Shown piece by piece: positions 10,908-64,000 of a stretch of DNA of 64,000 nt. The notes beneath the pieces were generated by a model. The model had not been told where the DNA came from, made no database searches, and saw nothing but the letters and a program-made list of their open reading frames with translations. Made by a program: the position numbers and the translations under genes. The DNA is from Niallia sp. XMNu-256 (lineage in GTDB: Bacteria; Bacillota; Bacilli; Bacillales; Cytobacillaceae). Location of the stretch: the NCBI RefSeq assembly GCF_036670015.1, contig NZ_CP137636.1, forward strand, positions 226,501 to 290,500, written 5' to 3'. Position 1 is the first letter of the stretch; each line of letters begins with the position of its first letter.

Positions 10908-11654
10908 TCATTCTCCTAAAATTTTTGTAAAAGCATCCATGTCGATAAAATATGGAACCACATTTCTTCTTAAATGAAGGGGATCAGTTTCCTGCGTATT
11001 AGGTCCAGTTTCTGTAGTAAATGCCAACTTAAAGCCTTTTTCTTTTAGAACATTGACATTTCGATCATTGAATAATCCAAATGGGTAGGCAAATACATCT
11101 TTCACCGGAACATATTTATTACACTTATCCAAATCTTGAGCAAACTCTTCATCGGTTGTAGACATCATCATACTTGTCTTCACATCTGTTCGTTGATGAA
11201 AGGAATCGGTATGGTTTGCATATTGGAAGACGTCTGTCATTTCAGTTAAATCCTCTTTCGTTAAACAAACGGACCGTTCGGGGGTAAACCCTTTCCCGAC
11301 CTCGTGAAGCCAGCCTGTTACGACAAAGGATACCGCATGAAATCCGTATTCCTTTAGAATAGGATAAGCATATTTTTTCATAGATTGGTAACAGTCATCA
11401 AAAGTAATTAATACAGACTTTTCGGGAATATCTATTCCAGCATAATAGTAATTCTTCACTTCATCCACGGTTAAGATATGAAAACCTTCATTATGTATAT
11501 ATCTCATTTGTTCCTCAAAATGTTCTAAAGTGACAAACAGTGGCGACGGGAGAATATCGTTATAATCTTGTGTTACATCAATGGCAGATGGGCTTTCTGG
11601 ATTAAACTCTGCTTTTTTCCTAATTTCGTGATAGACTAATGTAGTAAATCCCAT
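10908..11654 (-). CDS. Polysaccharide deacetylase family protein
   Basis: 248 residues, no signal peptide. NodB-homology motifs: VLITFDDCYQS carries the DD metal/catalytic pair but has Cys where TFDDG is usual; YANHTDSFHQRT is the metal-binding H-x-x-x-H stretch; FAYPFG is motif 3. In Bacilli such cytosolic forms may act on small N-acetyl compounds and not on cell wall. Co-transcription with a solute-binding protein suggests processing of the imported substrate, which is inference. Confidence 0.85.
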   Translation of the reverse strand: MGFTTLVYHEIRKKAEFNPESPSAIDVTQDYNDILPSPLFVTLEHFEEQMRYIHNEGFHILTVDEVKNYYYAGIDIPEKSVLITFDDCYQSMKKYAYPILKEYGFHAVSFVVTGWLHEVGKGFTPERSVCLTKEDLTEMTDVFQYANHTDSFHQRTDVKTSMMMSTTDEEFAQDLDKCNKYVPVKDVFAYPFGLFNDRNVNVLKEKGFKLAFTTETGPNTQETDPLHLRRNVVPYFIDMDAFTKILGE

Positions 11655-54981: not shown

Positions 54982-55215
54982 AATTAGGTGTCTTTGGGAA
55001 AGGAGAGAGGCTTTGGCCTTTCTGCTTTTCTGTTCACAAGACTTAAAAGGGAAGTTGGTGAAACTCCAACGCGGTCCCGCCACTGTAATTGAGAGTAACC
55101 TGCATAACCACTGTACAAGCTGTATGGGAAGGAGCAGGGAACGATGACCAAGAGCCAGGAGACCTGCCTTATTCTTGCACCAGAAACAACCTACGAGGAT
55201 AGGCAGGTGTATGAA
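54982..55215 (+). ncRNA. Cobalamin (B12) riboswitch
   Basis: The aptamer core reads GGGAAGTTGGTGAAACTCC, then GCGGTCCCGCCACTGT, and ends with the B12 box AGCCAGGAGACCTGCC. A closing GGCAGGTG near 55202 pairs with the box region. It is followed by a terminator hairpin at 55246-55276, so control is by transcription termination when adenosylcobalamin binds. It governs the uptake and salvage genes that follow. Confidence 0.96.
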
Positions 55216-55330: not shown

Positions 55331-56299
55331 TTGAAGAAACTTTATGCACTATTATTCACATTCCTTCTGTCAATCGGTATCTTGGTTGGCTGTGGGACAG
55401 GAAATGAAGCAGAAACCAATGAAGGTAAACAAGAATCACAACAAGATCAACAGGAACAAACAAAAACTTCCGAGTTTCCGGTAACAATTAAAGATGCCTT
55501 GGATCAAGAAATTGTTATTGAAAAGAAACCAGAAAGAATTATTTCACTGATTCCGAGTAATACGGAGATTGCCTTTGAATTAGGACTTGGGGACGAAATT
55601 ATTGGGGTAAGTAATTTTGATAACTATCCCGAGGAAGCAGCAAAAAAGGAAAAGATTGGGGACCAAACTCTTAACCTAGAGAAAATTTTTTCTCTTAAAC
55701 CAGATTTAATTCTTTCACATCATTCAGCAATGGGTGTTTCTTCTGAGGTCATCCAGCAATTAAAGGATGCAGGTATTACGGTTCTAACTGTAAATGATGC
55801 GAAGACGTTTACTGAAGTGTATGATTCAATTGAATTAATTGGGAAATCTACAGGTACGAGTGAAGAAGCGGAACAATTAGTTTCCGATATGCAAACAAAA
55901 CTAGAGGAAATCCAAGGGAAAACGGCTGATATTAAAGAGAAGAAAAAAGTTTATGTAGAAATTGACCCTACTCTTTTTGCTGCTGGTAAAAATACATTTA
56001 TTGATGAGATGCTAACACTAATTAATGCAGAGAATATGGTAACAGAACCTGATTGGCCACAATTAGATCAAGAAGCCATTATCGCAGCTAACCCAGATGT
56101 CATTATTACTACCTATGGGGGATATATTGAAGGTGCAGGGGATCAAGTTTTAAGTCGTGAAGGCTGGCAGGATATTAATGCAATTAAAAATAAGCAGGTG
56201 GTTGATGTAGATTCAGACAAAGTGACCCGTCCTGGCCCTCGTATTGTTGAAGGAGTAGAGGAACTTGCAAAAGCAATTTACCCGGAAGTTTTTAACTAA
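55331..56299 (+). CDS. btuF: Cobalamin ABC transporter substrate-binding lipoprotein
   Basis: 322 residues from a TTG with GGGGAGAG upstream. A lipoprotein signal ends in LVGC, followed by a Gln/Glu-rich linker. A helical-backbone class III binding protein: PERIISLIPSNTEIAFELG, LKPDLILSHHS and NPDVIITTYGG. It captures corrinoids outside the membrane and delivers them to BtuC. First gene after the B12 riboswitch. Confidence 0.93.
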   Translation: MKKLYALLFTFLLSIGILVGCGTGNEAETNEGKQESQQDQQEQTKTSEFPVTIKDALDQEIVIEKKPERIISLIPSNTEIAFELGLGDEIIGVSNFDNYPEEAAKKEKIGDQTLNLEKIFSLKPDLILSHHSAMGVSSEVIQQLKDAGITVLTVNDAKTFTEVYDSIELIGKSTGTSEEAEQLVSDMQTKLEEIQGKTADIKEKKKVYVEIDPTLFAAGKNTFIDEMLTLINAENMVTEPDWPQLDQEAIIAANPDVIITTYGGYIEGAGDQVLSREGWQDINAIKNKQVVDVDSDKVTRPGPRIVEGVEELAKAIYPEVFN

Positions 56300-57323
56300 T
56301 AAATGGATTGCTTATCCCATTGCAGGAGCCATTTTCCTTGGCTCCATGCTATTAGCGATTTCAATTGGTACAGTTCAGGTACCGATTTTTGATATCATCC
56401 AAATTTTGGGTGCTGAAATTTTTCGTTATTCCACGAGTCACATTGACCCAATGTACACGAATATCGTTATGAATATTCGCTTACCACGAGTGATATTGGC
56501 TGGTTTAGTAGGGGCGTCTCTTGCAATTGCAGGGGCCGCCTTTCAAGGTTTATTAAGAAATCCTCTCGCTGACCCTTATACACTTGGTGTTTCATCAGGT
56601 GCATCTGTAGGTGCAGTGCTTACCATCTTCTTAAATATTTCACTACCCATCATCGGAGAATTTACATTGCCGTTTTTAAGTATCATCTTTTCCTTTTTAA
56701 CGATTCTAATGGTTCTCCTATTTGCACAGAAAATTGAACGCTCTATGAAGGTAGAAACAATTATTTTAACTGGGATTATTTTTAGTTCATTTTTAGGGGC
56801 TTTTATTTCATTAATGATTGCGTTAACGGGTGATGAACTCCGTCATATCATTAGTTGGCTGCTAGGAAGTGTGTCGATGAGAGGTTGGGATTATATTAAA
56901 ATCATTTTACCATTCTTTATCGTTGGCACGCTCTTGCTACTTGTAAATGCGAATGAACTAAATGCAATGTCGTTTGGTGAAGAACGGGCCCAGCATTTGG
57001 GGGTAAATGTTCAAAGACGTAAAATGCTTGTTTTAACGGCAGGATCTATTTTAACAGGCGCTGCAGTGGCGGTTTCAGGGGCAATAGGCTTTGTTGGTCT
57101 TGTCGTTCCACATTTAACTCGGATTTTATGGGGACCTGATCATAAGCATTTATTGCCTTTATCTTTGCTAACAGGAAGCGGATTCTTAATGTTAACGGAT
57201 TTGGTAGCAAGAACGATCATTTCCCCTGTGGAACTACCCATCGGGGTCATTACCTCATTAATGGGAGCACCTGTGTTTGCAGCTATATTAATAGCACGTA
57301 AAAGAAAGGAAAGGAGGGGATGA
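56265..57323 (+). CDS. btuC: Cobalamin ABC transporter permease
   Basis: 352 residues from a TTG overlapping btuF by 35 bases (GGAG/GAGG just upstream). FecCD-type permease of about ten helices: IRLPRVILAGLVGASLAIAG, the ATPase-contact region GAIGFVGLVVPHLTR, and GPDHKHLLPLS. Overlaps continue through the operon, showing tight translational coupling. Confidence 0.93.
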   Translation: MQKQFTRKFLTNKWIAYPIAGAIFLGSMLLAISIGTVQVPIFDIIQILGAEIFRYSTSHIDPMYTNIVMNIRLPRVILAGLVGASLAIAGAAFQGLLRNPLADPYTLGVSSGASVGAVLTIFLNISLPIIGEFTLPFLSIIFSFLTILMVLLFAQKIERSMKVETIILTGIIFSSFLGAFISLMIALTGDELRHIISWLLGSVSMRGWDYIKIILPFFIVGTLLLLVNANELNAMSFGEERAQHLGVNVQRRKMLVLTAGSILTGAAVAVSGAIGFVGLVVPHLTRILWGPDHKHLLPLSLLTGSGFLMLTDLVARTIISPVELPIGVITSLMGAPVFAAILIARKRKERRG

Positions 57324-57325
57324 GG

Positions 57326-58801
57326 ATGATTGACATTCAACATTTGTCCGGAGGTTACGGAAATGAAAATGTACTTTCAAATGTGACATGTCAAATTCGA
57401 AAAGGTGAACTTTTTGGCATCATCGGACCAAATGGCAGTGGAAAAACGACCCTTTTAAAGATGATGAGTGGAGTCCAGGCTTTTAATGACGGAGAAATTT
57501 ATGTGAAAGGTCAGTCTTTAAAAAAATACTCTGCTATAGGGCTCGCTAAGGTGATAGCGGTCTTGTCTCAACATAGCTCTGAATCTTTCTCCTATAGTGT
57601 CAAGGAGACCGTTTCATTAGGTAGGTACGCCCATCAAAAGGGATTCTTCAAAGAGTGGAGTAAAGACGATGAGGATATTGTTCAAGAGGTAATGAATTGG
57701 ACAGGGGTTGCTTCCTTGCAGGACCATCCGATTCAACTTCTTTCTGGCGGAGAAAGGCAACGTGTTTTCCTTGCCCAAGCCCTTGCGCAGGAACCCGAAA
57801 TTCTCCTTCTTGATGAACCAACCAATCACCTTGATTTATCTTATCAGAAAGAACTGCTTGATTTATTGAAAAAGTGGACCCGTGAAAAGTCATTAACGGT
57901 AGTTTCTATTTTTCATGATTTAAATTTAGCTGGTTTATATTGTGATCGGTTAATACTTCTTGAGAATGGCAAGATCAAGCGTTACGATGAACCGAATGAA
58001 GTGTTAAAGCAAGAAATTATTGAAGAAGTATACCATACAAAAATTGAAAAGCACCCCCACCCAAAGGTACCGGTACCACAAATGGTTCTTCTTCCAGAAA
58101 GTGGACTTATAGAGGGAGAGGAAAATATAAATGACACTTATTTAACGGTTACAACTGAATATATTGTTTTGAAAGCACCATCGCCCCTTCGAACCATGTC
58201 ATCCGGTGTGATCGGCTCTGGAACAGGCTGGCATGACACTTTTGTCAATAGACATGTGGATAAAAACTATCACTGCAACAACCATCGAGAAGAAATGGCG
58301 AACTATTTAAGAAAAAGTGGCTTCGAACCATCCCAAACGGTCGGGATGATGACGGCAGTTGTAACAGAGGATGTTGTATCAAAGGTTTACGAGGAAAACG
58401 GCTGTTCCATACTAGTTGTGGTGACAGCAGGCGTGGGAAATGCGGTTGATGTATCTAAAAGTTATGAACAAAACTTTGACATCCAACAACCGGGTACCAT
58501 TAATACTTGGGTATTTGTGAATGGAAACCTAACAGAAGAGGCTTTCATCCAAAGTATCATGACTGCGACGGAGGCAAAGGTAAAGGTGTTACAGAAACTA
58601 GAAGTAAAGGATCCGAGAACGGAAACGCTTGCTACTGGAACTTCAACAGACAGTATCCTTATTGCAGCCATTCAAAAAGGGAAGTCTTTTGAGTTTGCGG
58701 GTACAATCACACCCTTAGGTCGTTTAATTGGTAAAGGTGTCTATCAATGTACAAAAGAAGCCATTCAGAAAAGCAATCGTAGAAAAGAAGGCTTACGATG
58801 A
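57326..58801 (+). CDS. Fusion of BtuD ATPase and CbiZ adenosylcobinamide amidohydrolase
   Basis: 491 residues; the ATG at 57326 has GGAGG 8 bases upstream, while the one at 57320 is too close. Residues about 1-250 are an ABC ATPase: GPNGSGKTTLLK, LLSGGERQRVFLAQALA, ILLLDEPTNHLD and FHDLNLAGLYCD. Residues about 265-490 are CbiZ: VLKAPSPLRTMSSGV, VTAGVGNAVDVS, NTWVFVNGNLTEEA and ATGTSTDSILIAA. CbiZ cleaves the aminopropanol arm of adenosylcobinamide to give cobyric acid. The fusion ties corrinoid import to remodelling in one polypeptide. Confidence 0.93.
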   Translation: MIDIQHLSGGYGNENVLSNVTCQIRKGELFGIIGPNGSGKTTLLKMMSGVQAFNDGEIYVKGQSLKKYSAIGLAKVIAVLSQHSSESFSYSVKETVSLGRYAHQKGFFKEWSKDDEDIVQEVMNWTGVASLQDHPIQLLSGGERQRVFLAQALAQEPEILLLDEPTNHLDLSYQKELLDLLKKWTREKSLTVVSIFHDLNLAGLYCDRLILLENGKIKRYDEPNEVLKQEIIEEVYHTKIEKHPHPKVPVPQMVLLPESGLIEGEENINDTYLTVTTEYIVLKAPSPLRTMSSGVIGSGTGWHDTFVNRHVDKNYHCNNHREEMANYLRKSGFEPSQTVGMMTAVVTEDVVSKVYEENGCSILVVVTAGVGNAVDVSKSYEQNFDIQQPGTINTWVFVNGNLTEEAFIQSIMTATEAKVKVLQKLEVKDPRTETLATGTSTDSILIAAIQKGKSFEFAGTITPLGRLIGKGVYQCTKEAIQKSNRRKEGLR

Positions 58802-59778
58802 TTGGACACGTATTAGCAATCACACTAGCTCTTATCATTGATCGGTTCATAGGTGACCCACCTTCATGGCCGCATCCGGTTAAATGGATGGGGTCATTAA
58901 TCTGTATTCTAGAGAAAAAGTGGAATCATGGTTGGAACCGTAAATGGAAAGGGATTATGATGGTTCTGTTTGTTTTACTTTCCATATTCTTACCTGCCAT
59001 ATTCATTTGTGCGATATCTTATAAGATTCATTTTGTCGTAGGAATACTTGTAGAGAGCATCCTTATTTCAACAACGATTGCCCATAGGAGTCTAAAGGAA
59101 GCAGCCATGGAGGTTTTTACCCCATTAAAGCAGACAGACATCGGGCAAGCTCGCCTTAAACTCTCTTATATTGTTGGTAGAGATACAGACCAATTAATGG
59201 AAAGCGAAATCGTCCGTGGGACCGTTGAAACGGTTGCTGAAAATACGAGTGATGGAGTCATTGCTCCTTTATTTTGGGCATGGATTGGAGGCGCCCCATT
59301 GGCTTTGCTTTATCGGGCTATTAATACTTGTGATTCAATGGTTGGCTACAAGAATGACCGCTATTCGGACTTTGGTTGGGCTTCTGCCCGTCTAGATGAC
59401 TTTATGAATTTGATTCCAAGCCGATTAACCGGATTTGCGATGCTGCTGTCCAATCGTCCTTTTAATAATCGTACGAAACAAGCTTGGGAGATTCTGTTTC
59501 GGGATGCGAAAAAACATCCAAGCCCAAATAGTGGCTGGTGTGAAGCAAGTGCTGCTGCACTTTTAGGCGTTCAACTTGGCGGCATGAATACATATAAAGG
59601 GATCGTGTCAAATCGGGCATTAATGGGCGACCCTGTGATTTCTCTTAGTAGAGATCATATTCTAAAAATGAATCAGATCTTAACGCGAACAACATTAATG
59701 TGTTTACTATTCTTATGGCTTGGAGGTGTTTTGATTGTTATGGCCAGCACATGGATCAAATCCGCATTATTTATATGA
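58798..59778 (+). CDS. cbiB: Adenosylcobinamide-phosphate synthase CbiB
   Basis: 326 residues, in an ATGA overlap with the fusion gene. CbiB motifs: IDRFIGDPPSWPHPVKWMG at the N terminus, YIVGRDTDQL, VETVAENTSDGVIAPLF and HPSPNSGWCEASAAALLGVQ. It attaches aminopropanol phosphate to cobyric acid in the membrane, directly using the CbiZ product. Confidence 0.95.
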   Translation: MIGHVLAITLALIIDRFIGDPPSWPHPVKWMGSLICILEKKWNHGWNRKWKGIMMVLFVLLSIFLPAIFICAISYKIHFVVGILVESILISTTIAHRSLKEAAMEVFTPLKQTDIGQARLKLSYIVGRDTDQLMESEIVRGTVETVAENTSDGVIAPLFWAWIGGAPLALLYRAINTCDSMVGYKNDRYSDFGWASARLDDFMNLIPSRLTGFAMLLSNRPFNNRTKQAWEILFRDAKKHPSPNSGWCEASAAALLGVQLGGMNTYKGIVSNRALMGDPVISLSRDHILKMNQILTRTTLMCLLFLWLGGVLIVMASTWIKSALFI

Positions 59779-60820
59779 TGCAGCCGGACTAAAGCAACCA
59801 GATCGAGTCATTGATTTTAGTGCCAACATTAATCCGTTCGGTTCCCCAACTTCTGTTAAGGAAAACTGGGGAAAGTTATTTGAAGGGATTGAAACCTATC
59901 CTGATCCGCAAAGTACTTCATTGAAAAAGAAGCTTGCTCATTTTGTGAAGATCGATGAAAAGCAAATATTAATTGGAAACGGTGGCTCTGAAATCATCAG
60001 TTTGATTGGGAGATGGTTAGCCGGCAAAAAGGTGATGATTGTTCAGCCTGCTTTTTCAGAATATGAAAGAGTATGTGCAGGGAATGGTTGTGAGGTTTCC
60101 TATTTTCACTTAACAAAGGATTGGAAAGTAGACTTTGATTCTTTTAAGGATAAGTTGGTGGATATAGATGCCGTTTTTTTCTGTAATCCGAATAATCCAA
60201 CGGGAGTATTTTTCAACAAGAAGATGATCGAGAGAATTTTAGGAGAATGTCAAAAACATGATTGTTATTTGATTGTTGATGAGGCTTTCTATGACTTTGT
60301 TGCCGATTACCAGTCGCTCGTACCTTTCCTCAAAGATTATTCAAATTTACTTTTAATTAGGTCGATGACGAAGATGTACGCCATCCCGGGCCTACGATTA
60401 GGGTATATGATGGCAAGTCCCGCTCTCGTTGAAACACTTTCAACCTTTCAATCCCATTGGAGTGTGAATAGCATGGCAATGAAAGTGGGAGAACTGTGTT
60501 TAGCGGAAGAAGAATATGTTCATCATGCGATTCGATTTATGGACTCACAGCGAGAGTACCTTTTTTCCTTTTATAAAAAGAATGGATTCCAAGTGACCGA
60601 TTCGAAGGTAAACTTTTATTTGTTAAAAGATCTTGAGCTAGACGACCAAATCCCCTTGTTCCGATTTTTACTGGAAAAGGGAATCGTTCCCCGACATACA
60701 TTCAACTTTCCCGGCCTAGAGGGAAGATGGCTGAGGTTCGCAATTCGGACAACGGAGGAAAATCAGCAACTTTTGGAGGCGATGCAAGAATGGCGCAGCA
60801 TTCACCCATCATCTTCATAA
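59735..60820 (+). CDS. cobD: L-threonine-O-3-phosphate decarboxylase CobD
   Basis: 361 residues from a TTG with GGAGGTG 8 bases upstream, overlapping cbiB by 44 bases. A fold-type I PLP enzyme: IDFSANINPFGSP, NGGSEIISLIGRW, FCNPNNPTGVF, and the PLP lysine in SMTKMYAIPGLRLG. It makes the (R)-1-amino-2-propanol phosphate used by CbiB. Confidence 0.93.
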   Translation: MLWPAHGSNPHYLYDAAGLKQPDRVIDFSANINPFGSPTSVKENWGKLFEGIETYPDPQSTSLKKKLAHFVKIDEKQILIGNGGSEIISLIGRWLAGKKVMIVQPAFSEYERVCAGNGCEVSYFHLTKDWKVDFDSFKDKLVDIDAVFFCNPNNPTGVFFNKKMIERILGECQKHDCYLIVDEAFYDFVADYQSLVPFLKDYSNLLLIRSMTKMYAIPGLRLGYMMASPALVETLSTFQSHWSVNSMAMKVGELCLAEEEYVHHAIRFMDSQREYLFSFYKKNGFQVTDSKVNFYLLKDLELDDQIPLFRFLLEKGIVPRHTFNFPGLEGRWLRFAIRTTEENQQLLEAMQEWRSIHPSSS

Positions 60821-61371
60821 CGGGCGGGGTTCGAAGTGGGAAGAGCAGTTTCGCGGAAAAGCTAGCGGGGGAACAATCGAGGATGGAGCCTTTTGGGCAA
60901 CTCCATTACATTGCCGCCATGCAGTCCTCGGATGAGGAAATGAAGCAAAGAATCCGCGTTCACCAAAATGAACGCTTGCACAGTGATCTTGTTTGGACAA
61001 CGTGGGAAAAACCAACTTCTATCGGTGAGCTTGCCGGAAACTTTGGAGAGAAGGATGTCGTTTTGCTCGATTGTTTAACGACATGGCTGAATAATGAATT
61101 GTTTTTTGAAATGGATGGTTGGAGAGATGATGCTTATTTAAGCCAACTCTTTGAAACCATGTGGGATGAGATGATTTCCATTAGTCGGAAAGTGAAGACC
61201 TTCATTATTGTAAGCAATGAAGTCCTTTATGAACCGATCGAATCGAATGATCTTGTCTTTGTTTACAGTTCTTTGCTCGGAAAATTGCATCAAAAAATAG
61301 TCGCCCAAGCACGTCTTGCTTATTTAGTAGAGGGGGGGATTCCGATCGTAATGAAAGGAGATATAAAATGA
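60790..61371 (+). CDS. cobU: Adenosylcobinamide kinase / phosphate guanylyltransferase CobU
   Basis: 193 residues from the ATG at 60790 (GGAGG 11 bases upstream); earlier in-frame codons lie within cobD. Walker [19 protein letters not shown], the guanylyl-acceptor region [20 protein letters not shown], and [16 protein letters not shown]. It phosphorylates and guanylylates adenosylcobinamide for lower-ligand attachment by CobS. The usual late EVG-x-GIVP motif is weak here ([17 protein letters not shown]). Confidence 0.9.
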
Positions 61372-62327
61372 AAGGTGTGATGATTCAAGGCACAGCTTCA
61401 GATGTTGGAAAAAGTTTAATTGTTACAGCGCTGTGCCGGCTTTTTTCTGATGAAGGGTTCAAAGTGGCACCCTTTAAATCGCAAAATATGTCCAATCATA
61501 TTTATTTGACAGCTGAAGGTTTGGAAATTGGACTTGCCCAAGGGATTCAAGCAGAAGCCGCTCGAACGAAAGCAACGGTTTGGATGAGCCCGATTTTGCT
61601 AAAGCCTCGAACAGACCAGGTTTCAGAGGTGATTTTATTAGGAAAACCAATAGATTCCTTGTCTGGAAAAGGATATCGTGAATCCTTTTATGAAAAGGGG
61701 TTAGAGGTGATTGGAAAGGCAATCGAACAACTTAAAAAAGAGTACGAGCTATTGATTTTAGAGGGGGCTGGGAGTCCGGTTGAAATGAATCTGAAGGATC
61801 GAGAACTGGTGAATATGAAGGTTGCACAAATGGCAGATGTACCTGTGATATTAGTAGCGGATATTGATCGAGGGGGGATTTTTGCAAGCCTTGTTGGAAC
61901 GTTAGAGTTGCTGACTCCTGAGGAACGCAGGAGAGTTAAAGGAATCATCATCAATAAATTTCGTGGGGACATAGAGTTGTTTAAAGATGGGGTAAGGTGG
62001 ATTGAGGACAAGACAGGGATCCCTGTTGTCGGTGTCCTGCCTTATATTCATAACCACATGATTGATCCTGAGGATTCCTTTTCCATTGACGAGTTAGGAA
62101 GGGAAAGTTCAGCAAGTGCTTATCAAGCTTACAAGGATACGGTGGAGGCTCCCGGCGGAGGCCACAGATTTACGAAGGAAGCGGACTCGATCAAACCTGG
62201 GAGCAATTGCACCAAGGCGCATTTGATTGATAGTCGCTATGACAAACTAGCTACCGAAATGGGAGCCCACTTGGATTGGGCTGAAATTAAGCGGATCATT
62301 TGGGATGGGGAGATTCTTTCGTCATGA
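61368..62327 (+). CDS. cobQ: Cobyric acid synthase CobQ lacking its amidotransferase domain
   Basis: 319 residues against about 500 normally, in an ATGA overlap with cobU. Residues 1-245 are an intact dethiobiotin-synthetase-like ATPase domain: [41 protein letters not shown] and [12 protein letters not shown]. After DSFSIDE, about 50 unrelated residues containing NCTK lead straight into the normal C terminus ([19 protein letters not shown]). The whole glutaminase region (PxxSNFxDFD, GxCGGYQ, GTYxHG) is gone, in frame. It cannot use glutamine, and activity with free ammonia is uncertain. Confidence 0.88.
62205..62215. repeat. AATTGCACCAA repeat core inside cobQ
   Basis: The 11 bases match the core of the 21-bp units at 24.35-24.44 kb and 49461, and encode NCTK in the same phase as in that array. 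They lie at the scar where the CobQ amidotransferase domain is missing. Confidence 0.5.
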
Positions 62328-63115
62328 AGATGGTAAAAGGTCTTGTAATGTGCATTCAATTCTTCACGAGTATTCCCATTCCTTATGAAGTGCCAATGGA
62401 TCGAATACATATCAATAAAGCAGTTAAAATGTTTCCGGTGCTAGGAGTGTTACAAGGAATCCTTTATAGTGCGTTCCTTTATGTTTTGTTACAATGGACC
62501 CCTCTTTCACCACTAGCCATCGCGTTTTTCGTTTGGTTAGCATTGATTATCATCACAGGTGGAATTCACCTAGACGGGTGGATGGATTGTAGTGATGCCT
62601 ATTTTTCTTATCGTGATCAGCAGAAGCGGATTGAAATTATGGCAGATCCAAAAATCGGTGCGTTTGGTGTCCTATCCGTTATTGTGCTATTGAGTGCAAA
62701 GTTTTTATTTATATATGAAATTGTGTTGCGGTTTAATGATAATACTTTTTTACTGATTATCTTGATCCCGTTTTTAGGAAAAGTTGTAATGGGGATGTTG
62801 TTGTTGAACATAAAGTCTGCTAAAGAAGAGGGGCTTGGTTCCCTGTTTAAAGAAGCGGCATCACAAGGATCGCTTTGGATTTATCCAGTATATGTGGTCA
62901 TGTTGGGCCTAATTATATTTTTGATAGGGTTAAAAGCGATGAGCGGATTTCTACTGTTAGTTCTGGCAGCTTTAGTATTTTTTATCGTGATCTCAAGGAA
63001 AATTGTTCGCTGGTTTGGTGGAATTACAGGGGATGTATTAGGCGCATCAGTGGAAGGGGTGGAATGCTTATTATGGATGACCGTGTGGTTGTGGCATTAT
63101 TTCGTCACGGGTTAA
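62324..63115 (+). CDS. cobS: Adenosylcobinamide-GDP ribazoletransferase CobS
   Basis: 263 residues from the ATG at 62324, overlapping the cobQ stop. Motifs: [27 protein letters not shown] (metal-binding Asp residues), [21 protein letters not shown] and [16 protein letters not shown] at the C terminus. An integral membrane enzyme that joins alpha-ribazole or its phosphate to adenosylcobinamide-GDP. Confidence 0.94.
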
Positions 63116-63696
63116 CCGAACTAAATAAACAGAAGACCTATATGGGGTGGACAGATGAACCGATTTGTGAGGAGGCTAAAGAAAGCTTAACCGCTTTACA
63201 ACCAAATCCATACCAAGTTGTGGTCACAAGTGACTTAATTCGCTGTTTGCAAACGGCCGCTATTCTGTTTCCAGAAAAAGACCCCATCCCTTTTCTAGAG
63301 TTTCGTGAAATGAATTTTGGCCCTTTTGAAAGAAAACGGTATGAAGAGTTAGCAGGCGATCCGCGATATGAGGAGTGGATAAGCAGTCATTTTGAAAGCA
63401 ACGTTCCAGGTGCCGAAACTTTTACCGATTTTACGCAGCGGGTCGAGAACGGCTGGACAAACCTATCCACTTTGGTAATGAGGGATAAGGTTGATTCATT
63501 GGCAGTTGTCACTCATGGAGGTGTTCTTCGATATTTATTATCAAAATTTGCACCGACTGAAAAGAGTTTTTGGGAATGGCGGGTTCCTCATGGAAATGGA
63601 TTTGAATTTGTATGGCCAAATCGGGAGACTTTCAGGAGGGGTGAACGATGCACTTTGTTACGGGAGGTGCTTTTAACGGAAAATCAGCATGGGTAA
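63064..63696 (+). CDS. cobC: Alpha-ribazole phosphatase CobC (histidine phosphatase family)
   Basis: 210 residues from an ATG with AAGGGG upstream, overlapping cobS by 52 bases; a longer open frame upstream lies within cobS. The catalytic [10 protein letters not shown] motif is near residue 14, with the second His in VVTHGGVLRYLL and the acid in FREMNFGPFE. It removes the phosphate from alpha-ribazole phosphate or cobalamin 5'-phosphate. The next gene starts 48 bases before its end. Confidence 0.9.
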   Translation: MLIMDDRVVVALFRHGLTELNKQKTYMGWTDEPICEEAKESLTALQPNPYQVVVTSDLIRCLQTAAILFPEKDPIPFLEFREMNFGPFERKRYEELAGDPRYEEWISSHFESNVPGAETFTDFTQRVENGWTNLSTLVMRDKVDSLAVVTHGGVLRYLLSKFAPTEKSFWEWRVPHGNGFEFVWPNRETFRRGERCTLLREVLLTENQHG

Positions 63697-64000
63697 GGGC
63701 ATATAATCAATTAACCCAAGAGAATTGTCAGTGGTTTAGTGCCTATCACTGTGATCCAATTCCCGTTGATTTTGACCAAGTGACGACGGATTATCTCGTC
63801 TTAGAAGGGATTGAACGGTGGATTCGGGAAGGGTTACAAGGTAGCAGTGGTGACGAAGTTCAGGAAACGTGGCGTGGGCTTTTGAGGCAATTGGAAAATT
63901 GGGAAAGCATGGATGGAAAAGGAAGTGTTATTTTAATTGGAACGGATATAACAAAAGGAATTGTTCCGCTAGAGCGGGAAGACCGCTTGTGGCGTGATGT
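63648..64000 (+). CDS. CobU-like adenosylcobinamide kinase/guanylyltransferase, second copy, 3' end beyond window
   Basis: 117 residues visible from an ATG preceded by AGGAGGGG. FVTGGAFNGKSAWV is a CobU-type P-loop, and GTDITKGIVPLEREDRLWRDV matches the CobU late motif that is weak in the first CobU. The residues between them diverge from standard CobU. Two CobU-type genes in one operon suggest division of the kinase and transferase steps, which is inference. Last visible gene of the B12 operon. Confidence 0.82.
   Translation, partial: MHFVTGGAFNGKSAWVRAYNQLTQENCQWFSAYHCDPIPVDFDQVTTDYLVLEGIERWIREGLQGSSGDEVQETWRGLLRQLENWESMDGKGSVILIGTDITKGIVPLEREDRLWRD

Follow-up and report, generated by a model that had tools for sequence, protein, structure and literature searches.

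Three reports (PMC3541065, PMC7242693 and PMC8123684) name CobQ/CbiP (EC 6.3.5.10) cobyric acid synthase, and two of them describe it as glutamine-using. The enzyme, whose defining reaction is the fourfold amidation of adenosylcobyrinic acid a,c-diamide, is treated as a glutamine amidotransferase (GATase), and its presence is used to predict the salvage of B12 precursors. The present analysis concerns a 319-residue CobQ without GATase, encoded at 61368..62327 in a stretch of 64,000 nucleotides from Niallia sp. XMNu-256 (RefSeq assembly GCF_036670015.1, contig NZ_CP137636.1, positions 226,501 to 290,500), hereafter called the window; all window features given below lie on the plus strand. The shortened CobQ looks like a working variant and not a broken gene, since many relatives share both the short form and the same altered active-site region.

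The window protein resembles CobQ/CbiP in its ATPase domain, in most of the near-invariant residues, in its C-terminal helices, in its place in the operon and in passing two curated profile cut-offs, but it differs in lacking GATase_3 and hence the glutaminase Cys/His, in carrying His for Asn44 and in belonging to a genome without a corrin pathway. Its structure model has the fold of dethiobiotin synthetase, BioD (match to 1dae), whereas identity in structural alignments is 14-22%, the match to TIGR00347 (37 bits) stays below the cut-off of 83.3, and the gene lies in a cobalamin operon. NadE, of an enzyme family other than that of CobQ, offers a functional parallel in its single-domain form, a synthetase without a glutaminase domain that takes ammonia as donor, a use which in the short CobQ is predicted. 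The single-domain form of NAD synthetase is probably ancestral, whereas short CobQ was derived by loss; moreover, enzymes using ammonia and enzymes using glutamine were not told apart by any residue of the active site there (PMC3376133), whereas residue 44 separates the CobQ forms. The lipid II amidotransferase MurT/GatD differs in that its GATase is a subunit of its own, and none of that kind was found for short CobQ.

Architecture of the window CobQ

The Pfam scan detected CbiA/AAA_26 and no GATase_3 in the window CobQ. Its dethiobiotin-synthetase-like ATPase domain (residues 1-246, 61368..62105) matches NF001989 over residues 3-246 (profile positions 2-244 of 480; 363.3 bits, cut-off 273) and TIGR00313 over residues 4-249 (positions 1-245 of 477; 316 bits, cut-off 309.9); because both NCBIfam CobQ cut-offs are passed by the first half alone, an automatic pipeline may well name the protein CobQ. 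In an alignment to the full-length CobQ of a congener (L002), residues 1-243 are 77% and residues 286-313 are 63% identical, and about 227 residues containing the L002 GATase domain (GATase_3, residues 253-446) correspond to about 42 residues of the window protein, a linker at residues 244-285 (62097..62222). The glutaminase Cys/His domain is gone and the C-terminal helices that follow the GATase site and end the synthetase fold (residues 283-299 and 304-313, 62214..62306) are retained. The Pfam, NCBIfam and L002 comparisons bear out the original prediction, made from the DNA letters, of an in-frame GATase deletion between a normal ATPase domain and a normal C terminus; the replacement it described also stands, but its sizes, about 200 residues exchanged for about 50, give way to those above.

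In the AlphaFold model the mean predicted local distance difference test score (pLDDT) is 96 for residues 291-300 and 98 for residues 301-310, and linker residues 261-275 fall below 50. Structure models place the GATase as an insertion within the dethiobiotin-synthetase-like fold, at the point where the core passes into the final pair of helices, and the structural match to dethiobiotin synthetase extends to residue 307 of the window CobQ. Since the GATase is an insertion in the fold, its loss leaves a complete, foldable synthetase domain. No solved structure of a CobQ synthetase domain was found by sequence searches.

The window cobQ sequence is identical in the assembly of its own genome (G000; 4.36 Mb in 4 contigs, 99.74% complete). 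As had been noted before, there is no frameshift, and the gene overlaps its neighbours as in an intact operon, with the ATGA overlaps with cobU and cobS both preserved. Six-frame translations of the junction scored against the L002 GATase no better than shuffles, and so gave no sign of GATase motifs in another frame. At the junction only short, chance-like repeats were seen, and no plasmid match to it was found. A degenerate GATase remnant in the linker, hinted at by a MAFFT alignment, was considered and rejected: local protein alignment to four relatives was no better than shuffles, and DNA and six-frame tests were unconvincing, 25 of 500 shuffles reaching the score in the best case (L002).

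Recurrence, position 44 and selection

Searches covering relatives, the order, the class and one scan of named genomes yielded at least 38 distinct GATase-less CobQ of the window kind, the window protein included, a lower bound in which one search was counted among the matches listed. L081 and L176, the same contig and sequence, form a single entry among the 38; L050, at a contig edge, is excluded from all counts, and L040 (G010), which belongs to another CobQ clade and lacks the tail, is excluded from the 38. The short form was seen in Neobacillus bataviensis, Cytobacillus firmus, Psychrobacillus, Sporosarcina, Paenisporosarcina, Oceanobacillus, Virgibacillus, Siminovitchia and others. In the order survey, for which two listings were matched by eye and did not display the second CobQ match of G088, 173 of 397 genomes gave a CobQ match, and an intact short frame, judged by open-frame length, was present in seven of these (G000, G043, G133, G159, G323, G357 and G392); the other short matches were a contig-edge fragment (G242) and a frame with a stop (G332). 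The short architecture occurs with differing junctions in many other assemblies. At the loci of the 38 short genes, cbiZ was found in 36, cbiB in 36, cobD in 35, cobU in 37, cobS in 37 and cobC in 36, mostly in the same order; L179 is flanked by BtuFCD only, and L178 has no cbiZ.

No description of a GATase-less CobQ was found in the titles or abstract openings of the CobQ and cobalamin papers listed from an open library, which did not include the CbiP/CbiA enzymology papers. A Paenisporosarcina sp. is tabulated among CbiP-bearing salvagers in the appendix of PMC8123684, and both named Paenisporosarcina CobQ found here (L062 and L063) lack the GATase. With a selected form that has no glutamine half, annotation can mislead throughout an entire group of Bacillales.

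Asn44, in the QNMSNNS loop, is present in 95 of 95 full-length CobQ and replaced in 35 of the 38 distinct short forms, by Phe (19), Tyr (6), Leu (5), His (3), Lys (1) or Arg (1). The window protein carries His at this position (codon 44, 61497..61499), and three short forms (L039, L087 and L179) keep Asn; the QNMSNN loop with Asn44, used here as a criterion, comes from the 95 full-length proteins compared and is not a published definition. The change tracks GATase loss and not salvage life, since all 13 aligned full-length CobQ from genomes without CbiC keep Asn. Among 67 ATPase columns at least 97% conserved in 92 full-length CobQ, 43 were unchanged in all 24 short forms then compared, L040 not being one of them, and Thr48 (10 forms), Ala57 (11), Arg199 (10) and Asp165 (5) were partly changed. 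In a weak profile alignment position 44 falls in the stretch that directly follows the dethiobiotin synthetase lysine, Lys37. An independent-pairs test of GATase loss against position 44 found three pairs, on starred branches, with a median p of 0.5; with so few, the association draws on the counts as they stand and on parsimony, with 10 changes against 10, and kinship and horizontal exchange reduce the truly independent events behind it. The recurrent loss of Asn44 suggests a change that went beyond the nitrogen source. As no separating residue was reported for NAD synthetase, what is seen in CobQ stands out and would allow for an altered substrate.

The ratio of nonsynonymous to synonymous substitution rates (dN/dS) in the ATPase domain was 0.050-0.102 in short pairs (six of seven, one being saturated) and 0.030-0.144 in full-length pairs (eight of nine, one being saturated). 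With G003, which itself has a short CobQ, as outgroup, the window CobQ shows 20 unique changes and the full-length relative in G002 shows 16; the corresponding window and G002 figures for the neighbours are 35 and 16 for CbiB, 50 and 27 for CobD, 35 and 19 for CobS, 16 and 15 for CobU, and 21 and 21 for BtuC. Judged by these rates the window cobQ is kept and not drifting, given a dN/dS like that of full-length genes and a pace no faster than that of its operon neighbours.

At least 10 changes between short and full-length forms are required by a likelihood tree built from 117 ATPase domains, 25 of them short, and strongly supported branches force five of these changes; a second tree, of 91 rows with 39 short and with column 44 taken out, omits L040, which is in the first, and 43 distant full-length rows, and gives 10 changes, three forced by strong branches. 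Several branches are long, some of them those of short genes, so that the exact number of changes is unsafe, and exchange of genes can raise it. All short forms except L040 and L179 cluster among salvage-operon-type CobQ in both trees, and the full-length CobQ near CbiC in Psychrobacillus sp. OK032 (L082) sits in another part of the first.

Both forms occur within one genus, g17, which is probably Cytobacillus, since G357 and C. firmus DS1 share 96% identity in this gene; these two have the short allele and G020 has the full-length one. Between the long allele (L007) and the short ones (L048 and L057), DNA identity is about 83-98% in most 60-base steps of the flanks and gene ends, and only about 45-77% in the gene body; synonymous divergence (dS) is 1.97 in cobQ against 0.18-0.63 in the flanking genes. 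The alleles look to have been exchanged as a cassette by recombination, in one direction or the other. A burst of fast evolution after GATase loss in G357, suspected because CobQ is 70% identical to L007 against 85-94% for CobD, CobU and CobS, was rejected, since recombination fits the high dS and the mosaic identity profile better. Natural allele pairs with and without GATase in one genus, together with one separating residue, offer a direct way to test how CobQ transfers nitrogen and selects its substrate.

L040 (4266-5006), beside open reading frames (ORFs) that resemble thiamine genes by eye, has the loop QNMSLNS and keeps Asn44. L179 (G474), which also keeps Asn44 and has no other cob genes beside it, pairs in the tree with a full-length Paenibacillus CobQ and is possibly a recent, separate GATase loss. 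The full-length CobQ of Thermoactinomyces vulgaris (L074) has Gly in the column of the GATase catalytic Cys, the sole case among 92 full-length proteins, and the stop-containing fragment of G332 (contig 13, about 187841-188359) is apparently a genuine cobQ pseudogene.

Possible roles in corrinoid salvage

Genome searches of G000 found no CbiC and no CobQ besides that of the window, and its three TP-methylase genes match uroporphyrinogen-III methyltransferase, 16S rRNA methyltransferase and YabN. With these otherwise assigned, and with CbiC present in four of four sampled congeners, the window lineage seems to be one that gave up corrin synthesis and subsists on salvage, in line with the salvage-only cell of the original prediction. 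Across short-CobQ carriers (G010 left out and a duplicate removed, genomes G427-G441 being without completeness figures), seven of 38 have CbiC. CbiC is absent from 31 of 34 short-only and 14 of 33 full-length-only genomes (Fisher p = 2e-5, uncorrected for kinship and with the two genome sets coming from different draws).

The reading preferred here, at a probability of roughly 0.48, is that short CobQ is a corrinoid amidoligase that does without glutamine, uses ammonia and is retained for salvage; among simple readings, an ammonia-dependent variant, the other option of the original prediction, is the best. Loss of the inserted GATase would leave the ATPase fold complete and foldable, and the short enzyme would activate corrinoid side-chain carboxylates with ATP and accept free ammonia in place of glutamine-derived ammonia. 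Its probable purpose is one of low flux: imported or damaged corrinoids would have their amides completed or mended, which would let CbiB form adenosylcobinamide phosphate, and in a few species the enzyme might even complete de novo synthesis. The sequences themselves show the architecture and its recurrence, the purifying selection, the place in the operon, the repeated replacement of Asn44 and the exchange of alleles within one genus, whereas ammonia as the donor, a corrinoid as the substrate and the meaning of position 44 are the parts that we infer.

Three of the seven CbiC-positive carriers (G043, G357 and G392) have short CobQ only, together with cbi operons whose CbiH, J, C, D, ET, L, F and G match NCBIfam models; CbiA has an NCBIfam match in G357 and G392 and was found by similarity in G043. 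The cbi genes of G357 are still under purifying selection. Among genomic hints that short CobQ may still function as a cobyric acid synthase, these three genomes are the best. Their full-looking operons lie at L044 2389-11499 (G043), L163 10512-19904 (G357) and L164 8917-19161 (G392).

Several observations weigh against an ammonia-using amidoligase. A mere change of nitrogen donor need not cause the replacement of Asn44 seen in nearly all short forms. CbiC is absent from 31 of the 38 carriers, most of which are thus without the corrin pathway that makes the normal substrate. In the other four CbiC-positive carriers (G003, G434, G437 and G781) a second CobQ, of full length, lies no more than about 12 kb from CbiC, so that de novo synthesis is not everywhere left to the short form. 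In the cbi genes of G357, 41 amino-acid changes are unique, compared with 24 in those of G020 (p = 0.046, in a test without CbiJ and a CbiH-like gene), a hint of relaxed selection.

A repurposed enzyme is possible, although considered less likely than the amidoligase: after GATase loss the synthetase domain may have taken up another ATP-dependent step of CbiZ-type salvage, for instance the binding of cobyric acid that CbiZ sets free, or the activation of the free f-carboxylate of this acid and its delivery to CbiB, with the loop around residue 44 retuned for the new step. Such a change would fit the replacement of a residue that full-length CobQ keep even in genomes without CbiC, its position just after the dethiobiotin synthetase lysine in the weak alignment, the cbiZ gene at 36 of 38 short loci, and the four genomes whose full-length copy stays near CbiC. 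In its boldest form, held to be equally doubtful, GATase-less CobQ would be a recurrent, horizontally exchangeable new ATP-dependent corrinoid enzyme specific to CbiZ salvage, with a substrate other than adenosylcobyrinic acid a,c-diamide, into which GATase loss and the replacement of Asn44 had turned a glutamine-dependent cobyric acid synthase. Repurposing is countered by the presence of both CbiB and CbiZ, each in 36 of 38, and by the three cbi-positive genomes with the short form only; moreover, we know of no reaction that is missing.

A relic would have arisen had corrin synthesis been lost, CobQ become unneeded, and a harmless chance in-frame deletion left the gene lingering in a translationally coupled operon. 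The excess of CbiC-lacking genomes among carriers, the long branches of several short genes and the broken cobQ of G332 agree with this, but the dN/dS of short pairs matches the low values of intact genes, unique changes number 20 in the window CobQ and 16 in its full-length relative where those of the operon neighbours range from 16 and 15 (CobU) to 50 and 27 (CobD), position 44 changed recurrently, and the allele of one genus was apparently exchanged as a cassette, which makes a relic improbable. The early pathway decay considered in the original prediction is not supported, on similar grounds, the short form occurring in many lineages under purifying selection about like that on full-length genes and evolving no faster than its operon neighbours; the claim that a salvage-only cell would not need CobQ was too strong, as the 14 full-length-only genomes without CbiC illustrate.

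That another cellular glutaminase feeds ammonia to short CobQ in trans is more improbable still, although synthetases with separate glutaminase subunits exist (MurT/GatD; two-subunit NAD synthetase). The sole GATase_3 match above cut-off in G000 is a gene that by eye resembles HisH and lies amid histidine genes; no detached cob GATase was found there with GATase_3 or a profile of the second half of CobQ, other glutaminase families not having been searched. The operon holds no extra ORF at the GATase place, and in 25 carrier genomes matches to the second half of the CobQ profile outside full-length CobQ did not exceed 26.3 bits. An assembly or sequencing artefact, conceivable with a single assembly of the window species, can be practically dismissed given the intact frame, the ATGA overlap at either end and the recurrence of the architecture, with differing junctions, in many other assemblies.

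The window operon

The operon is preceded by a cobalamin riboswitch (54997..55185; Rfam RF00174, 99.4 bits) and opens with genes for a btuF-like corrinoid-binding protein (55331..56299), an ORF named from sequence and position, and a btuC-like permease (56265..57323), an ORF named without a family-library scan, the places of both being conserved in relatives. These are followed by a BtuD-type ATPase fused to the adenosylcobinamide amidohydrolase CbiZ (57320..58801; PF00005 at residues 19-169, PF01955 at residues 287-477), which confirms the CbiZ of the original prediction, and by cbiB (58798..59778; PF03186, TIGR00380), cobD for threonine-phosphate decarboxylase (59735..60820; TIGR01140 above cut-off) and cobU (60727..61371; PF02283), whose true start may lie downstream of the listed one. 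Downstream of cobQ come cobS (62324..63115; PF02654), its ATG at 62324 overlapping the cobQ stop, an alpha-ribazole phosphatase-like cobC (62875..63696; PF00300 at residues 74-236), whose true start is probably downstream of the listed frame, and the start of a second CobU-like gene, an ORF that runs off the window (63648..64000). BtuD-CbiZ is a single fused protein in the window, and in L041 (G043) the CbiZ match lies in a separate ORF of 256 residues. The operon-terminal CobU-like gene is the shorter of the two; its L039 counterpart (10991-11434) matches PF02283 with 42.7 bits and covers only the C-terminal half of the Pfam CobU family.
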